Position numbers and translations under genes: made by a program. Below are positions 4,731 through 19,561 of a stretch of DNA of 24,358 nt, in pieces. The notes under the pieces were generated by a model. The model did not search any database. It was given only the letters and a program-made list of their open reading frames with translations, and was not told where the DNA came from. The stretch's first letter is position 1; each line of letters starts with the position of its first letter. Source of the stretch: Jaapia argillacea MUCL 33604 (taxonomy: Eukaryota; Basidiomycota; Agaricomycetes; Jaapiales; Jaapiaceae); contig KL197792.1 of NCBI GenBank assembly GCA_000697665.1, positions 45,632 to 69,989 on the forward strand, read 5' to 3'.

Positions 4731-5588
4731 TCATAGCTCTACCTCCCGAATACCATCCTTGTCCACCACCTTGACCTTGTATTTCCCCGGCGCCACCACC
4801 AAACGCTTCGAAACTTCGTCGATGCAACGCTTGAGAGTGGCAAGACCTTCCTCGAGAGGAGCCTCTGGATCGTGGTATCTGAGGGAAGAGATGCGTGTGA
4901 GAAATAAGTTTCAGATACACGGCGTGAGAAGGTTGGAGAGTCTGATTGGATGACATGAAAGCCGAACTTAGGCCGGCGAATGAATGGAAAGCCAGTGGGG
5001 ACCTGGCGGTCTGCCTCGTTTTACGGACCATAAAAGTGGGTCGCACGTCCACAAGGAAGGGAAGCATCTACCAAGGATGGAAATGGGCTCTCACCGGTCA
5101 AGCAAACTCAAGGCGAAGTAGCTGCCGTAACCATGAGCCGCAAAGGGAACAGTGGCCATCGTTCCCAAGTAATCGATCCAGTAGAGGTGGGGTGTGTATG
5201 TGGAGGTGTCGTACCCACCCAGAAGCAGATTAACGGAGTAAGGGGAACGTGATCGGAGAGAGTCGGCGAGGGATCGACGAATCCATGAAGCGGCAGAGGG
5301 AGGGCGAAGTGGATAAAGGTTACGGATCTGGTAGAGGCGGATGTTGCGTTCGATGTATTCGGCAAAGTTAACGGTGTCACCTGCAAGCGGTGTCATTAGG
5401 TCGGTGAAAGGACAGTCAATTGGACGAGACAACATACCTGGTTCACCGGAGTATGCCATCAACAAATGAGGACCAAGAGACTTGATCTTGTCCTCGTCGC
5501 CCTTCATTTTTACAATGGAACGAGCAGCGGTGGTGTCTGCGGCGACAAGGACATAGCCTTTTCCCGTTAACGCGAAGGATACGTCCAT
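4731..5588 (-). CDS. PRE1: 20S proteasome subunit beta type-2 (beta-4)
   Basis: Exons 5588-5438, 5380-5095 and 4878-4731 (minus) give 194 residues, close to the 198 of the yeast protein. It is a structural, non-catalytic subunit of the beta ring of the 20S proteasome. The protein begins at the mature fold (GYVLVAADTTAARS) with no propeptide or catalytic Thr1. Clear family blocks are SLGPHLLMAYSGEPG, DTVNFAEYIERN, YSVNLLLGGYD, YWIDYLGT with AAHGYGSYF, and the end KVKVVDKDGIREVEL. Intron 1 is 57 nt; intron 2 is 216 nt, unusually long for this window, and no extra exon fits in it because the family sequence is continuous across the joint. The gene is divergent from the thioesterase, 148 bp apart. 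Confidence 0.96.
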
Positions 5589-5736
5589 GGTTTCAGAGAC
5601 AGTGAAGGTCGGTACGAAGGAGAATAATGGATTATTGGACTCTGCTTGTTCACCAGTCCACGCGTCCTCGACGCGTCATGCTCGTTTCAAACTCCGACTT
5701 GTACCACGGTTCGCTGACCCTGACCGCGTTGATAGC
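5589..5736. promoter_or_regulatory. Bidirectional promoter, PRE1 / thioesterase
   Basis: Only 148 bp lie between the two divergent start codons, so both promoters must overlap here unless the shorter thioesterase start at 5827 is used. I see no TATA box and no match to the proteasome element GGTGGCAAA. The thioesterase frame is open through the whole region without any further required start. Confidence 0.5.
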
Positions 5737-6519: not shown

Positions 6520-9500
6520 CTACAATACGTACCCAGCTGCCGTTAACGCCTGCACAAACGGTCCGACCACGTTCGCATCACCAGCCCCCAACAGATTCCT
6601 GACTCTCGGATCACTCTTGGAGAGGCGGACCAACTCTTGTCCGAGATATTCTCGTGGATCCTTCACGTACCCAACAGGATCCGCGCTAGGTCCCTCAGAC
6701 GCCGCGAGTCGCGAATACGCTGCCTGATATCCTGCTGTTTGTTCCTCGTAATCGATCGCCGTGATCCCGGCGTCAGGATCATCACCTCCGTCCTTCGATG
6801 TTAAGAACTCCGGTTCGTGGAATAGTCGAACAAGGGATGAAAATGCCGACGGCCTGTCATGGACGGGCGTCAGCATCAGCGGGAGGGATATATTGAGACA
6901 CTGACCAGGTCTGAATGGTTGGTTCTCGAAGCATAATAGAACTCTGCGTCAACATCCTCGTTAGACCGACAACGACAACCTTCCGGTCCTTCGTAGGCAT
7001 TTTTGGAATCTGGGGAATGACGAAGTTACTCAGGACTTGGGACCACAGTCTATTCGAGTATCAATGATTGCACGCAAATAGAAAAGGTCAATCATCGGAG
7101 GCTTACTGAGGCTGCACTTCTTCGACAGTACCCAGAAGATAGTCAGGCGTCAATCCCTCGACTTGAATAGCCATGGTGAACATCAGGAAGTAGACGAAAT
7201 GATAAACATATTTGTCCGTCTTGCTCGTTTGCATTCGGGTGAGGAGCGCAATGATCACAGGGCGGAAGTATTGTTTCAGCGCTGCTCTGAATTCCATGAA
7301 ACGATGAGAAAGGGCTCTGTGAAGGGTACGAACTTAACGCACGGAGGTATATTCTGGACCACGGCCTGGAGCAACTCAAATCCCCATCCATCGTTCAACT
7401 TACTCGGCAACAATCGCTGCTGGACGACAGCGAGAACCGCGGTAAAGTGGCCGGAGGAGACCATATTGGCGGTATCCTTAACCAAAAACGCGTTCAGGAG
7501 TTTCACGAGGCCGGGAATATTGCCCTTTTGCTGCCACACCGGCGGTTGGAGGAGGAATTGCAAGAGTCCACGGTATTCGGCCGGTGCACCCGAATGGTGT
7601 AGTTCGAGCATTTGGGCAAGGATTTGGAAGACATACGGAATATATTCTGGGGAAACCTAGCGTCAGTCACGATAAAGAATGCTCATCCGACATTGCTCAC
7701 GGTCGATATCCTGCTGCAGGATAATTGTAATGGGAGCAAACAATGCTTGTTCGAAGGTAGGATGGGTATTGGGACTACCAGCAACGACGAATCTGCATCA
7801 TTCCGGATGAATACCGCTGACCAGACAACAAAGGGGGGAGGAATGCACCTCATCAGGGCTGAAATACTCTCAAATATGTACTGATCGAAATTCGGGTTGC
7901 TAGGATTTTTCGAGATGACGCCAAGGATGGTAACCAGTCGTTGGAGGATTTGCTGATACACGGGAGTCAGTGTCTGACGAGCAGTGATGATGACCCGCAT
8001 AGCACCTAGGACGTCCAGTTCAGTACTGGAGATGAGGAGAAGAACCGAACAACTAACATTTCATCAGATGGTCATTTTCTGCTACTTTTTCAGGACTTCC
8101 TGCGGACTCAATCTTGGCCAGCAGTACGTTCAATAATTCGGGCGCGAAATCACGAACGTCGGCTTGCGTGAACCTGGGAAACACAATGGAAATCTTCAAC
8201 ACGAGATTCATCAGCAGAGACGAGCGCGTACAAGAGTTGAGTTCCTTGGCGAATGAACAGGATGCGTTCGATGGTGATTGCGGCGTAAGTGTAACATACG
8301 TAGTTGTTTGATCCAAGATGACGATGAAGAAGAGGAAGGACAGAGAGTAGTTGGTCTTTCGACAGCTACCAAGGTGGCTCGATTGTGAGCCGGATATATA
8401 CAGGAAAATTTTTGAGAGAGCTCACCTGATTGCGGAATGTATACAAGAAGCGAATTGCGTCAACCTGCAGCATGGGATGTACTTTGCTTGGGTCTGCTTG
8501 CAAATCCTGAAATACATGATCGGAGAAGAACTTGACGACATCCACCAGCGCATTAGTCGACGTAACGCCATGCTAGGGGACACATCAGCCACGGCAGCTA
8601 GCGCAAATAACAAATGGGAGTACCTGGGTCGTCGACCCTTTGGTCGCAACGGCCGTCAAGAGGTAGACAGCGCTATCCTTTGCTTTCCATGCATCCTCGT
8701 CCTTGCCTGCAGCGTAATCCGACAGGCCTTTACCTATCCATGTCCCCACAACCTCTGTCGTCTCCTTTTCCGATCCTGAAGCCACGAGCGCACGGACCAC
8801 ATCCGCAGCAGCTTGTCGACGGGTCGTCGCATCCGAAACGCCGCCTCCCATCGAAGGAAGAGACAAGTCTTGACGAATGAACTCCAGAGGATCGTCTTCA
8901 AACTGCTCCATTTCGTGATCTAGGAATTCAAAGAATCATGTCACGGACAACACACGAGGGGAGTGGGCGACCATACCTCGCAGTCCGACGTTGGGAACTA
9001 CGACTCCTTGGACAAGGCTGGAGATTGTCTCCGGCGTTCCGAAAAGAGGCTTGTAATGACCCGAACGTATAGCAGTCGAAATGAAATGCAACGATTGAGA
9101 CACAAACTGCACAACACATTTAGGACTGTGCACGAAGGTCAAACGGGAAAACGTACTGAGTCGTTCGCCACTCCTTGCAAAGTTCCTGTCCCTAGGAGAT
9201 TCCAAACCACCTGAGTAAATGCTTCCACGGAAGCTGACTTTGAAAGCATCTCAGGATAAAGTTTGAGATACAGCTACCAAGATGGAGTGTTAGAGGGGCG
9301 AGTGGTTTGTGGATAACTTCATACCTCCGCGATCTCGAGAATGGCGGTTTTAAGTTGTGCAGGAAGGGAAGGGGTCGTATCGTCAGGCTGAATTTACATT
9401 TACGCGATCAGCTGATAGTGTATGACAGCAAATCCATACTCACGTCACCACGAAGCTCAACCGGGTCCCATGCAAGAAATTTGGTAAACCATCCCTGCTG

Positions 9501-11830: not shown

Positions 11831-14800
11831 ATGGATCTGCCCAAATCCTCTGAACGCTCTCCAGTATCCAAAGTGGACGTGACAGTTGGCGAGGCTGGCG
11901 ATTCGACCGATTTCAATGAGGTACTACCGCTATCTAGCAGAGTTGTTCAGGAGGCAAAGTTGAAGCGTCTCCTCGACTTGAGGTTGATGCCCATGATGAT
12001 ATTGATCTTTTTACTGAACTACATTGACGTGAGTGGTCACGTTGCGCATCTTTGTATTAATTTATCCATCGTCGCATTACAGCGGATTGCTCCAAGTGCT
12101 GCGAGGCTGCAGGGGTTAGAGACGGACCTTCGCCTCTCGGGTCCACCCGTCTTCTTTGACGATGCTAACACTTGCTGACTACTCGCACAGACGTCCAATA
12201 CGAAGCGATTTTGTCCCTAGTATATGCACTATATTGTCCTGCTCAAATTCCTTCGAACGCCGTAAGCAGTTGCCTCGCCCAGTGCCACCCCCCTGACTAA
12301 GTTGGGATGCTGGTAGTGGCTCAACAAAGTTTCAAGGTGAGTCGACTTGCTGCTGGGTCTCGCTTTTCATTTATTCCTGTCAGACCTTCCTTGTATATCG
12401 GCACTTGCGTAGTCATCTGGGGTTTAACCAGTCTTCTTACTGGAGTAGGCATATAGTCCCCATTCTGTGAATTCACCAACATATCTAGCTCTACAGATCA
12501 CGCACAACTTCATTGGCATAGCGTTGTGCCGATTGTTCATCGGCCTTCCCGAGGTTCGTGATGTAACCATTCCGATGAGAACCTTCATCCTAACGACTCC
12601 TCCAGTCGGCGTTTTATCCTGGCGCGGTCTACCTCCTGTCAAGATGGTATACGAAGAAGGTTTTTCACATTCCGATTATCACAGTTTTCCTCAGTTTAGC
12701 ATCGAGGCTAATATCGCTTATAGGAGCTGTCATTCCGAGCGGCCATTCTATACTTTGGTCTCCTCATCTCCAACGCCTTTGGAAGCGTCTGTATCTACCT
12801 ATCTTTTTCATGATCTCGCTCTCAGTTGTCCCTGACATAGCTAATTGCTGCGGGGATTCTCGCACACATGGATGGGGTACGAGGTATCAGGGCATGGAGA
12901 TGGTAAGTTCAACCGTTCAAGTTGCATCGGACTGTTTCCGTGTAACAAATCCATCTGCTCAGGCTATTTTATATCGAGGTACATCGAGCCGTCAAGGAAT
13001 TGACCTGTTGTTGACCGACCTCGTCAGGGCGCGATTACGATCGCTATTGGCTTTCTCGCCATGTATGAAATTTCGACCCCATCTCCTACTTTCTCTCATT
13101 CTTTTTTTCAGGTGGATACTTCCAGATTATGTTCGCTAATTGTCCCGTGTTGTCTGTTCTTTTTCTGTCTCACCGAGCTCTGACAGCCGCATAATAATCG
13201 TTGGATGACTGCTACCCAACGACGATTGGCGCAAAGGCGCATCGCAGAAGATGCCGGTGAAGCTGACGAGGATACCGATAAAGAATCGTAAGTGCAGATC
13301 TAGTGTACGAGTTATCTCAGCTGGACCGATTGCTGCCTGTAGGTTCTGGCAGGGTATGAAGCTTGCATTGAGGGACCCCAAGACATACATCCTTGCGATG
13401 CTCTCGTTCTCTCAGCTCGTGGGCTTGTCGTTCATCAATTTCTTCCCAACGTGAGCTCGGACGAAGTCAATACATCCCCCAGTTCCATTCCTGATTTATG
13501 TTGAGTCTAGGTTAACTGCGTCGTTGGGATTTGATACGACGGTCACCCTTCTTATGGCTGCGTGAGCCTCAACGCACCTACGTCTCCCCCACTAACTTCT
13601 GACATAATCTCAGCCACATCGCGTGGAACTTCTATAAAGGGTAGGCAACACAATTTCTGCTAAGTCCCTCTGGCGGCGGAGACATGGGAGCATGGAAACT
13701 TGTATTCTACTTGTAATTAGCTACGAAAAATCATAAGTTAGGTGCCCTCATCTTCGCGTCGGGGGAGAGTGCGAAAGAACATGGTATTTTGACTGGTACG
13801 GCCCCAAGTACTAGGATAAGGCCCCACTGAGGAGTTCATTTGCTTCTGGAGGGTTTGCCAGTCGCGTCCGGTTTGAAAGAGCGCCCCTCCGCGTTGTTTG
13901 ATGAGATTGAGGAAGCGCATATCCCGAAACTGCTTCTGGAATGCAATTGCCTCGGAGATGAACCTTGATAACGAGATGATTTCATCCATCTCGTCATCAA
14001 ACGTGCCTGCGGAGACATGCGGCGGTCGGTCGTCATCAAGGCCGTAATCATCATCTGCTGCGGCGTCGTCTGCTTCTTCGTCGTTCGCGTATTCGTCGAC
14101 ATCGTCAGAGGGGTGTTGAGGGCGTGTGTTGGCAATCGAGAACGAGTTGGGCAAGCTGGTACCGGGAGGAGGAGGGTATCGGGGAACGAGAAGGGGATGG
14201 TGCCAGAAGGGTGTAGTGCGATTTCTGGTAACTTCCAAGAAGAAGCGCGGATCAACCGGGTGGCAGGTCTGGACAAGATGTTTACATATCAAGAAGCGGT
14301 GCTTGATCATCGCTGGACAGGAACATATCCAAAGGTAGGCATCGGTTTGATACTGGGGTTGATTCCCAACTATCACTTTGTTCTCGCAGTACCGCCACTC
14401 TTTCTTGAAGGCTTTTCGCCATCCTGGCGCACCTCTTTTCCGTCCTGTCTTGTTCTGGAGGCGATCCAGCTTGATCATGTACTCCGGTGATAGCTTCTTC
14501 ACAAGAACCCACACGAGAAGATCAACTCGGGGTTTGTGAAAGTGAGTGAGATAGTCCTTCTTGATTCGCCGCCAGCTGACGAGAACTTCCATCAGTAAGT
14601 TTTCATCCACAGATCCCGGGCCTCACGTACTGGCTTTCACAAATCATGGTTGTTTTAAGACGGGGGATTTCAGGTGATTCACATCTCGCCCAAAGCTCCC
14701 ACCTCCCTCTGCGATACCAGTTTTCCCAAAGGTAAGCCCAACACTCTCGAAGATCATGCTGATAGCAATACTGATACATCTCCTTGACAGCCCATTCTCG

Positions 14801-17800
14801 GATCGCAACAGCATTCGCGGCGTATGGCCCAGGAACCAGCGGGTGAGCACACATATGCCGCTCAACCATATCGACAATTTGTTGGCGGTCCTCCTCGGGG
14901 CAGAAGGAGCGACGTAGTGGTGGGGAGGGGAGTTCAAGTGGCTCGGCCGTGATGTCGGTAAGTGGCCGCCCTAGCTTCGAGAGGCTGATCTTTATTTTGA
15001 GCGGTTCATTTACTCCCCCCCGTGTAGACTCGCATCCCTGGTTGGCCTCGGATCCATTGGCACTTCGGTCGAGAGACTCGGTGGGTTCCGTTTCGTAGAT
15101 TTTCTTTCCTCGCTCCTTTAACCCGATCTCATCAGCCTCTTCCGACTTGACCGCGGTTGATTTGGGACCTGCATATCTTTTTGCGATGTGCTCGTCGCCC
15201 GGCGCCTCGTTGTCGCTGGGGTCAGCTTTGTTTTCTGGGACGAAGTGGATGTCGATGAACGGGAGATCGAGGTGAGCGGCGGTCACGTTGTAGGGAGTCG
15301 TGGTAAGTTTGTTTTTTGATAGACGTTCTCGGATAGCCTTCCGTTGATGCCACCAGCATAGCTGATGTTTTCCTCCCTCCCAGGTATCATTCGCAGCTTT
15401 GATCTCTGCGATGTCTTTGTCTGTATGGACGAACCGTGGATCCACCTTGTAGCGAGTCTTTACGGCCCCCATGAATGATGCCAGGGCCTGCCGATGCTTC
15501 CCATTGTCGATCGCTGTTGCGGTTGATAGCAGTAGGTATGCGAGGGGGATACCTGTGTTATCATACTCCCCCATGACTGCGTATAACTCGAGGTCTTTGG
15601 CGTTTGTATTATCTATGTTTCGGTGAGTCTCTCGTATGCTGAGCGTTGTGACCATTACTTACATGTTGCATCCAGTCCGACTTCAACAATCTCCCCTTCG
15701 ATTCTAGCGGTGATTTTTCTCATCCCCCACGCAACCGCTGTCACCCCGTCGTTGACTTGGAGTTCAAAGACATCCGCATCCCCCATCTCTGCAAACTCAC
15801 CCAGGAGTTCTTTCGCTGACTCCACCTGCCCCTCTTTCCGCTTCCAGAGCCGCTTGCTCATCTCAGCCCACGCTTTATATATCTGAGCTGGTGTAATTTG
15901 AGGCCATCTCTCATGGATTGGTGAGACGAGGCTACTTGGTGGTTGCCAGAGATTCTCCTCAATGAATTTTGTGATTTCGGGTTGGATGTCGACATGGTAG
16001 TAGGCCATATGGGTATGTGAGTGTTCGAGGTAGATTTCGACCCTTTGCTGTTCATCCTTCAGCGTAACTGATATTCGTAATTGTCCGTTACAGGGGAAGC
16101 GGTCCATCCCAAGGTTGTCCCGGTTTTTTATCCCAGGCCCTTGCTTTATCTTTGATTTCTTCTTGTGGACGGAATCTTGACTACACCAGTAGCGTGTGGT
16201 GTGACCATGGACGCGCTTATGGTGCTCACGTACACTTTGATACGAAGTAAGTCTTCAATCTTTGTGAATTAGTATGGTTAGACTCACGTAAATCTCCACT
16301 TTGTTGCCAATGAAACCTCTTCTAGTGTCATATTCACTCTCTGGCGTGCGGTAACAAGTGGATCGCTAGGTAGGGTATATTCTCCCACAAATGACAGATT
16401 ACTTGAATCCTTTGATGTTTCCCGCTGTCGTTTCAGCTTTTGAAATAGATCTCCTGCACTTGTGAAGTGAATAGGATTGGGAGCTGTCTTCAGCACTGTG
16501 AGTGAGATTAATTCTTCCGTGCATCAGGGTTTTGCTCACCTTTTGTTTTTTAGACAGTGGTGCTTCTCCCCTCTTCCCCTTGTTGTTCTCATCACCCCCT
16601 TGCCTATCCTCATCTCCCTCTGTTCCGTCGTCACTATTTGGTGCGACTTGTGGTCGTCCCCCTCCCCCTACCGCGTTTTCTTTCGTGTCATCTCTCTCTC
16701 TCTTCCGCTTTCTATATTCCCTCATCTCCTCACGATGTTTTGCACATGTTTTCCACCGTGTTCCAACTGGAAGCACTGTAGTACAATGTGTATTTGAGCA
16801 CTTACTACCACTCATTGTGCACCAATGTAGAGTTTCGTGTATTTTTTGCGGTTATGCCAGGATTTAAGATGCCAGAAGTGTCTCAGAGGATCATAAAAGC
16901 AACAAATAGATTATTTCGAGGCCGGTAAGACAAGTAAGCAGTCGATAAAGTGTATCCAGATGTTATTCCAAGTTCGACGGAAACAGAAGTTCGTATATGG
17001 CAAGAACAACACCAATTTGGCACGCGCGGGAAAGCTTATGTCAGAAGTTAGTGGGGGAGAAGTAGGATTGCTGTGAGCCTCTGTTGAGATTTCCTGCGCC
17101 TTTGAAATAACCTTCATACAGCCCGCCGTGGATTTGGGCGGCCATCGTTTGCTGTCTGAATGCATGGAGTGCTGGTGAGCGTATATGTAACTTGTCCTGC
17201 TTCTCTTATCCACTCACAAGCATAGACCGGACTGGAGAGCGCTTCTTCCATGTTTCCTTTTGGATTTGGGGTACGATGATTGGATACATCATCTCGCTGT
17301 CCACAAGTTCAGTCGGCGCACGCTACGTGTCCTTGTTCCTGATGGCTAGCGGCTTTGCAGGTGAGGTCTCGTGGGTTCCTCTGTGGCGGCAGCAATTGAA
17401 TAAGGATTACCACAAGGGTTTTCGATGGTTTTAGTCTGGGTTCGTGTCTACGCCGTCTCTAATTCATCCCACTCTAATTATGTCTTCCTAGACATCGAAC
17501 GCCATCCCGAGGCCCCCAGCCAAGCGAGCTGCGGCAATTGGTATCGTTAATGGATTTGGTAACCTGGGTCCATTGTGAGTAAATACGCTTCGCCCTCCCA
17601 TTATCTTCTTATCCCGTATCAGAGTTGGTTCATTTGTCTGGAAGGCCGACTGGGGACCAGACTATCGCCAGTCCATGATTATCGCTTTGGTATCTTTGTT
17701 CATCTCCACTTGCTTTGCCGGTGGTGCGTCTTTCAGTCAGCACCCTCGCTTCCAGTGATCTTCCATTCTCAACCGCTTTGCCCGTGCAGTTATGAGATGG

Positions 17801-17953
17801 ATCCTGATAGGGGATAACCGGCGTATCTCGGAGGAGGAATCAAAATGGCTTCATGGGCCAGATCGAGAACGCGTCGAGGAAGCCGCACGATTGGAAGGCA
17901 TCAGCTTCGAACAAGCCGTTGTGAAGAGGAGAGGGTTCAGATATTTGTACTAG
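11831..17953 (+). CDS. MFS transporter (Dal5/Tna1-like), split by a transposon
   Basis: Twenty-one exons: 11831-12028, 12083-12140, 12191-12261, 12317-12336, 12384-12444, 12497-12553, 12606-12659, 12724-12786, 12841-12902, 12963-12978, 13028-13062, 13112-13130, 13187-13287, 13343-13450, 13511-13561, 17122-17174, 17226-17360, 17417-17439, 17492-17574, 17623-17720, 17790-17953. All phases agree, giving 509 residues, normal for the anion:cation symporter family of carboxylate/vitamin permeases. Blocks: FLLNYIDR (TM1), HNFIGIALCRLFIGLPE, FYPGAVYLLSRWYTKKE, AWRWLFYIEG, MWILPDYPHN, PPWIWAAIVCCLNAWSADRT, AIPRPPAKRAAAIGIVNGFG and a cytosolic tail. It imports an organic anion by proton symport; the substrate is unknown. 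Exons are tiny (down to 16 nt). Intron 15 carries a 3.5-kb Mutator-like element, so expression may be impaired although no codon is damaged. Confidence 0.92.
13562..13570. repeat. Left 9-bp target-site duplication
   Basis: GTGAGCCTC, identical to 17073-17081. It immediately follows exon 15 of the transporter and is itself the intron donor (exon ends GGCTGC). Nine-base duplications are typical of Mutator-like elements. Confidence 0.95.
13571..13607 (+). repeat. Left terminal inverted repeat of the MULE
   Basis: 37 bp, beginning AACGCACCTACG and ending TTCTGACATAA. It matches the reverse complement of the right end at 32 of 37 positions, with the inner 25 bases identical and the five mismatches in the outer 12. 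Confidence 0.93.
13738..16815 (-). CDS. MULE transposase with SWIM zinc finger
   Basis: Exons 16815-16540, 16487-16288, 16234-15663, 15612-14631 and 14575-13738 (minus) give 955 residues with all phases consistent; intron 1 uses a GAAG acceptor. Order: N-terminal Cys/His-containing region (CSNTHC, WKTCAKH) followed by a basic RKRKRER helix; a low-complexity linker; a region with YWCSQDS resembling the FLYWCH/WRKY-type DNA-binding part; then the RNase H-like MULE core. Catalytic candidates are Asp about 347 (GLDATYNTN), Asp about 413 (VHTDKDIAEIK) with the CWWH motif, and Glu about 676 (TTMICESHW). The SWIM finger CSC...CKH lies at about 762-778, before an Asp-rich tail. A disordered insertion of about 150 residues separates the second Asp from the Glu. 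It cuts and pastes the element. It appears intact. Confidence 0.93.
17036..17072 (-). repeat. Right terminal inverted repeat of the MULE
   Basis: 37 bp, beginning TTATGTCAGAAG and ending GTAGGATTGCT on the plus strand. It pairs with 13571-13607. Confidence 0.93.
17073..17081. repeat. Right 9-bp target-site duplication / original donor
   Basis: GTGAGCCTC again. It is followed by the rest of the original intron up to CATACAG at 17121, after which exon 16 starts with the codons for PPWIW. Confidence 0.95.
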
Positions 17954-18104: not shown

Positions 18105-19561
18105 CTACTGGCTCTTCGCATCCCTTTCCTTCTTCCTCAAAGCCCGTGCTCTTATACTTCTGTGTAACCGGTGTGTATACGCAATGATACCACTCTTCCA
18201 ACCAATAACCCCCATACCCCAATCTACGAACGCGTGGCTCCAAAATGGGGTGCACGTATGAGGTCGTCCAGTAAACGCTGCACCGCACGAGAGACCAATC
18301 TTCGAGAGGCAAGAGCGAACATAGGAGGCGGGAGTGGGGACTAGAGCTGATGATCGGCGAATTTTGGACATATCAGATACCTAGAAACAAAGCCATGAAG
18401 CGATGATGATGGGTAGGTTTAAACGTAAGAAGGGGAAGAGAACTCACAACGAAGTAGGTGTTGAGATGTTGGACAGTGATACCATGTCTCGTCACTTCCT
18501 CACCCAGGGCAGTAGACCAAGTTGACAAGAAAGCCTTTGAGCCAGAGTAGGTTGCAAGCATCGGTGACGGGATGGATCCGGCAAAGGAGCCAATATTGAG
18601 AATTAACCCTCGTTTCCTAAGACACTCGTTAGGAAGAATTGGGGAGACGGTGTTCGGTTTGAGACGTACCGTTGAATCATGCCAGGAAGGACAATGGATG
18701 TGACACGCAAAACGGCACTGATGTTGATGGCAACTATGTCGTCAATCTCGTGTTTTGGAGTCTCAGCGAAGTCGCTCGGCATTTCATGAGACTTGCCAGC
18801 GTTGTTCACTATAGACGGTCAGACCTCCGTCCTCCTTGATGCTAGAAGCAGTGAAGATCTGGTATCACTCACCGAGAATACCAATATCCATACCCTGACA
18901 TGCATCCACAAGTCGAGTAAATCCATCGTCGCGACCATTTGAGAGATCAACTATGACGATTTTGGTCTGCACCTGGGTCCCACAATTGGCGTCTTACAGA
19001 AGCGAAACAAGGGCATATCAATCAACAACACCACCATACTCGAGAGATGATGGAAGGCGACGCACTAATCTGCGAGACCGTCTCAGCCAACTGGTGATAG
19101 TTCCTCGATGCGACCAAGACATTGAACCCGGCCTTGCCAAGTTGGATAGCGAATTCACGTCCGATTCCACCAGAGGCACCGGTGACAACTGTTATTACCA
19201 AAAGATATCCAGAAGTTCAGTCGGTCCAAAAACCCTGAGGGCGAAATCGTTCACCTGCCCATGAACCACTCTTGGCTCCAAATTTGCGCAACTATGCCGG
19301 AAACGATCTTGTCAACCCAGTCTAAACATTCCACTGGTACGGTTGAAACCCACTTGAGTACCTTTCAGCATAAAGGTCTGAACAAATACCGACAAGGTTT
19401 TTACGACGACGATCACGAATGTGAGGAATCCAAGGGCAGAGAAGAAGACGACCACCGACCCCGGGTGGTAAGTCGCTATGAGGGATTGGAATTAAGCACA
19501 AATGAACTCGGCTTCGCATATCACTGGGATTTTTGAACACACCTAAGGAGCCCAAGGACAT
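18105..19561 (-). CDS. IFA38: Very-long-chain 3-oxoacyl-CoA reductase (KAR)
   Basis: Exons 19561-19543, 19475-19354, 19291-19255, 19188-19040, 18972-18873, 18808-18670, 18616-18448 and 18380-18105 (minus) give 336 residues (yeast Ifa38 has 347). It is an ER short-chain dehydrogenase that reduces 3-ketoacyl-CoA in the fatty-acid elongation cycle feeding sphingolipid synthesis. A membrane segment lies at about 15-45 ([18 protein letters not shown]). The NADP-binding TGASGGIG is at 62-69, NNAGKSHE near 141, the catalytic Ser199 in NIGSFAG and YSGSK with Tyr212 and Lys216. The segment [17 protein letters not shown] and the basic tail ([11 protein letters not shown]) are KAR-specific. The 19-nt first exon is small; the start ATG is supported by phase and family length. 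It is convergent with the transporter, 151 bp apart. Confidence 0.95.

Follow-up and report, generated by a model that had tools for sequence, protein, structure and literature searches.

A Mutator-like element at the 5' splice site of a transporter intron in Jaapia argillacea and its predicted effect on splicing

Hop of Fusarium is a Mutator-like element (MULE), whereas Ds1 of plants belongs to a different superfamily, hAT. In Aedes aegypti, the MULEs Muta1 and Muta5, the latter 3,496 bp long, have a MULE transposase domain, terminal inverted repeats (TIRs) and a 9-bp target-site duplication (TSD), and the element described here is like them in these features (available sections of PMC5225508). 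It differs from typical MULEs in its TIRs of about 40 bp, against a typical length of more than 100 bp, and in its position at a host 5' splice site; TIRs shorter than 60 bp were reported for two of 14 Aedes MULE families (PMC5225508). In the exonization of Ds1, a host intron likewise acquires an acceptor from the end of a DNA transposon. The Ds1 splice sites lie no more than 35 bp from the ends, over 70% of the simulated products were cut short by early stops, and the evidence consisted of RT-PCR, transcript matches and simulation (excerpts of PMC5432752). The exonization proposed here is a prediction, and its acceptor, unlike those of Ds1, lies 43 nt inside the element end.

A donor from the TSD combined with an acceptor from the element, as predicted here, is one of the arrangements described for DNA-transposon introners (in parts of PMC9860276 and PMC12403724). 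Unlike in introners, however, the intron existed before the insertion, the acceptor belongs to the near end of the element, and the remainder would stay in the RNA. A whole-element introner was rejected on the age of the intron, on the near-end position of the acceptor and on the far end of the element, which is not AG. Introners are recognized by many copies sitting as introns; three copies of this element were found, and the other two sites are not intron-like to the splice scorer, the genes there being unannotated. A literature search brought up no report of a MULE at a splice donor in a fungus, which does not prove absence. The RNA prediction made here is sharper than that of the sequence-only reading which preceded this analysis, and the insertion appears otherwise to be that of an ordinary young MULE.

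The host gene, the element and its copies

The window analysed is a stretch of 24,358 nucleotides from contig KL197792.1 of J. argillacea MUCL 33604. The features of the host gene and the element are as follows.

11831-17953, plus strand: host MFS transporter gene (PF07690; MFS_1, 131.8 bits), with 20 introns and, taking 13562-17121 as intron 15, 509 aa; a model predicted from reading frame and splice sites
13562-13570, plus strand: left target-site duplication GTGAGCCTC, bases 1-9 of intron 15
13571-17072, minus strand: MULE of 3,502 bp, its transposase on the minus strand
13571-13610, plus strand: left terminal inverted repeat
13738-16815, minus strand: transposase gene with five exons, 955 aa, open; a spliced model in which intron 1 is uncertain
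17033-17072, minus strand: right terminal inverted repeat
17073-17081, plus strand: right target-site duplication GTGAGCCTC, in which the 5' splice site recurs
17073-17121, plus strand: ancestral 49-nt intron 15, complete behind the element

As modelled, intron 15 has 3,560 nt, and the remaining 19 introns of the gene range from 47 to 69 nt (mean 54.4). The sequence-only reading had calculated that joining 13561 to 17122 would restore 509 residues in frame and that the empty site would be a normal intron of 49 nt, and both statements are correct. In all three paralogs examined, which lie on contig C18, the same codon is split by an intron of 53-54 nt; intron 15 therefore predates the insertion. 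These MFS paralogs are neighbours (C18, 292500-304500) and share the intron position between MAA and PPW. The host exons have all stayed open, as would fit either recency or retained function. It had been pointed out that the insertion left the exons untouched; this is borne out, although it is not special in itself, because 41% of the empty gene is intron. Gene function need not persist after an insertion within an intron, even with the exons intact.

The ends of the element, at 13571 and 17072, hold to the base, and the 9-bp duplication does cover bases 1-9 of intron 15, its 5' splice site included. Both ends are inverted: the arms 13577-13610 and 17033-17066 (34 nt, 94% complementary) stand first in the list of inverted repeats of the window, and the two ends agree at 34 of their first 40 bases. 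By sequence, a low-copy MULE that looks complete has landed at base 1 of an old intron of 49 nt, whose 5' splice site was duplicated.

Three copies of the family were found in the 43.7-Mb assembly, near-identical where visible, with identical left ends. The C16 copy shows both ends (left, 81/81 bases identical; right, 99% over 356 query positions) around an interior of 3,636 N, and it is flanked by a 9-bp duplication of its own, CCTGATCAC. In the C54 copy, the left 332 bases are visible and all identical, preceded by the flank GTGGCAAAT; an N run of about 13.3 kb follows, which spans two adjoining stretches and in which the second flank is lost. The alignment of the copies was a check that could have told against the proposed element: it gave the same ends, and the differing duplication at C16 is read as ordinary transposition. 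Since the copies share their ends and differ in their duplications, the element ends are right and the transposition is real. That the copies are nearly identical where visible, and that the TSD is perfect, suggests a recent insertion.

A search of the assembly with a 24-base TIR core (at most three mismatches) returned the five known ends and nothing else, with 0 matches for the control. A laxer search for extra copies gave 44 matches, namely the five known ends and 39 with two or three mismatches, against 74 for the control pattern. In viral contigs, four stretches matched the pattern sought for relatives and none was confirmed. A Pfam scan of the two ORFs beside the C16 copy gave no match.

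The element is assigned to the MULEs on its transposase domain and its TSD. The spliced transposase model scored 37.7 bits against PF10551 (MULE; cut-off 27.6), and a single exon scored 25.3 bits, below the cut-off, or 28.1 in the genome search. A duplication within the 8-10 bp usual for MULEs is present at two of the three copies (GTGAGCCTC here and CCTGATCAC at C16); TIRs are present and short. The junction of transposase intron 1 is uncertain because the 44-nt form favoured by the scorer breaks the frame, and the 52-nt form was retained in the model. Candidate catalytic D-D-E residues were picked by eye in GLDAT, HTDKD and CESHW.

Splice signals in the left end and the fate of the transcript

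Beyond the left copy of the donor, the left TIR reads TCTCCCCCACTAACTTCTGACATAATCTCAG, in which a run of pyrimidines, a pair of CTRAY branch sites and an AG can be recognized. Two further features were predicted here.

13592-13613, plus strand: predicted decoy branch sites CTAAC and CTGAC and acceptor CTCAG, giving an intron 13562-13613 of 52 nt
13614-13644, plus strand: predicted element-derived exon stretch ending in the stop TAG, giving a 334-aa product

Splice sites were scored with matrices built on the 19 remaining introns of the host gene, and branch sites with a fixed CTRAY matrix. The donor at 13562 scored 5.8 bits, and 5.7% of window GTs are as good. For branch site plus acceptor, 13613 scored 11.2 and the native acceptor 9.9; 12 of the 19 other introns equal or exceed 13613, as do 3,083 of 48,316 window positions for an acceptor at that distance, and the long intron contains 203 AGs, of which 25 match or surpass the native acceptor. 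The total scores were 17.0 for the 52-nt intron, 16.2 for a 78-nt alternative (acceptor 13639), 15.7 for the 3,560-nt intron and 15.3 for the empty 49-nt intron. With a length prior, the scorer chose the assigned acceptor in 19/19 left-out host introns, in 3/3 introns from the paralogs and in 3/4 from the transposase; without the prior it found 8/19 true acceptors, against 13/19 for a first-AG rule. Prior and scoring set both come from 19 introns of one gene; the prior amounts to assuming intron definition, and much of the outcome depends on it. With the prior, 13613 is picked for the donor at 13562 and 17121 for the right donor at 17073. The predicted products have 334 residues for acceptor 13613 (ending ...MAAHIAWNFYKG), 356 for 13639 and 325 for retention.

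In the inward direction, each element end (13571-13620 and 17022-17072) contains CTCCCCCACTAACTTCTGACATAA, a sequence similar to a fungal 3' splice region. The right TIR, so read, has an AAG acceptor at 47 nt that scores lower than the left one (7.4 vs 11.2), and a good AG follows the left end only.

In fungi, basidiomycetes included, splice sites are inferred to be recognized mainly by intron definition (available text of PMC2397502), for which reason use of the decoy acceptor would be expected, together with splicing of the 49-nt intron, which is intact. The explanation we favour, with a probability of about 0.6, is that a recent MULE insertion at the donor led to a decoy 52-nt splice, exonization of the element and a truncated protein. 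The left donor copy now faces a left TIR that reads as a pyrimidine tract, CTAAC/CTGAC branch sites and CTCAG; intron definition would most likely pair donor 13562 with acceptor 13613, and donor 17073 would pair independently with 17121. The element would then be exonized, translation would stop after 334 residues, and the allele would presumably be null or truncated until the element leaves, while a minor transcript that lacks the 3,560-nt intron and encodes 509 aa may also be present. If the element were excised, the site could be restored; among Muta1 revertants from sites with TSDs, about 90% were reported to be precise (available sections of PMC5225508). What counts against the decoy splice is that an acceptor as good as 13613 is found by chance at 6.4% of positions and that the 78-nt alternative scores nearly as high. 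Against it also stands stwintron missplicing, by which fungi can at times remove a double intron as a single unit, contrary to intron definition (parts of PMC12403724). A twin intron at this locus was itself considered and rejected, since the last bases of the element before the second donor are not AG.

The sequence-only reading had the whole element spliced out as a 3,560-nt intron, so that the 509-residue transporter is made, and it overlooked the strong acceptor in the left inverted repeat. Intact donor and acceptor sites, the in-frame join and the score of 9.9 for the native branch site and acceptor all speak for such a rescue, yet the donor has a better acceptor 52 nt away, and the second donor still defines a 49-nt intron. 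An intron of this size is, moreover, far out of line with the other 19 of the gene, which makes the rescue unlikely, if possible; in the available table rows of PMC2397502, as they appear to read, introns above 200 bp make up 5% in C. neoformans and 18% in U. maydis. The higher-scoring acceptor in the left TIR and the predicted stop argue instead that the gene is more likely cut short by the decoy than rescued by a giant intron. Alternatively, most transcripts might end within the element or retain it, donor 13562 remaining unspliced and reading stopping at once; retention is indeed predicted to stop the protein at 325 aa, but with the donor intact and a good acceptor at a normal distance we regard this as quite improbable. 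It would be more surprising still if the locus were an assembly join that had misplaced repeat sequence in the MFS gene. The N runs in the C16 and C54 copies imply that the assembler struggled with this family, and the interior could be a mosaic; the perfect TSD, however, flanks exactly the ends that the other copies define, the window contains no N, and either flank (280 bases on the left, 279 on the right) matches this place alone in the assembly, so that no empty allele is seen there. For a fungus with short introns, the locus is a clean test of competition between acceptors, with one donor, a transposon decoy at 52 nt and the native acceptor 3.5 kb off.

Target sites of the family and other loci

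A TSD starting exactly at a donor would be expected by chance at 20 of 2,612 positions of the empty gene (0.8%), and one copying the first six donor bases at 3.1%. A single insertion cannot tell luck from preference. The proposed preference of the element for GTGAG-type donors found no echo in the other copies: GTGAG occurs in neither of the two other targets (C16, CCTGATCAC; C54, left flank GTGGCAAAT). In both targets, one end of the 9-mer next to the element is GTG, against 709 of 24,350 window 9-mers (2.9%), a post hoc count with n = 2 in which C16 is read on the opposite strand and C54 from the left flank alone; a bias toward targets with GTG at one end is thus a weak lead. Under such a bias, splice-site targeting is unnecessary, because 8 of the 59 eligible sites in the empty gene (34 starting with GTG, 25 ending with CAC) are donors already. 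For the active MULE Muta1, no target sequence preference was apparent (PMC5225508).

The C16 site on its other strand, GTGATCAGG, has a donor score of 4.1 bits, a value matched by 17% of window GTs, the 19 true donors ranging from 1.1 to 10.1; the C54 9-mer scores -1.0, below all true donors. The C16 site was rejected as a hidden intron, its best acceptor lying at 71 nt and 222 of 243 comparable window GTs being equal or better. As far as the scores go, neither site appears to support a habit of landing on donors, in regions whose genes are unannotated. It is conceivable, though in our estimate very unlikely, that the family acts as a splice trap, favouring GTG-end targets so that the duplication often puts a GT at the element edge and the TIR adds a branch site and an AG 47-52 nt inward. 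Suitable insertions would then create mini-introns of normal size that fuse host transcripts to the element.

Two other MULE-domain loci, C14 (387-6395) and C4 (739-6586), have related inverted ends (TGGATAAT.../GATAAT...) and are flanked by direct repeats, read by eye, of 7 bp (GAGTTAT) and 10 bp (CCAAATTCAC); the C4 locus has one stop within the domain match. Around the transporter gene, a Pfam scan gave matches in three of eight neighbouring ORFs, all on the minus strand: 8585-8935 (Cse1), 5091-5675 (proteasome subunit) and 18373-18741 (short-chain dehydrogenase).
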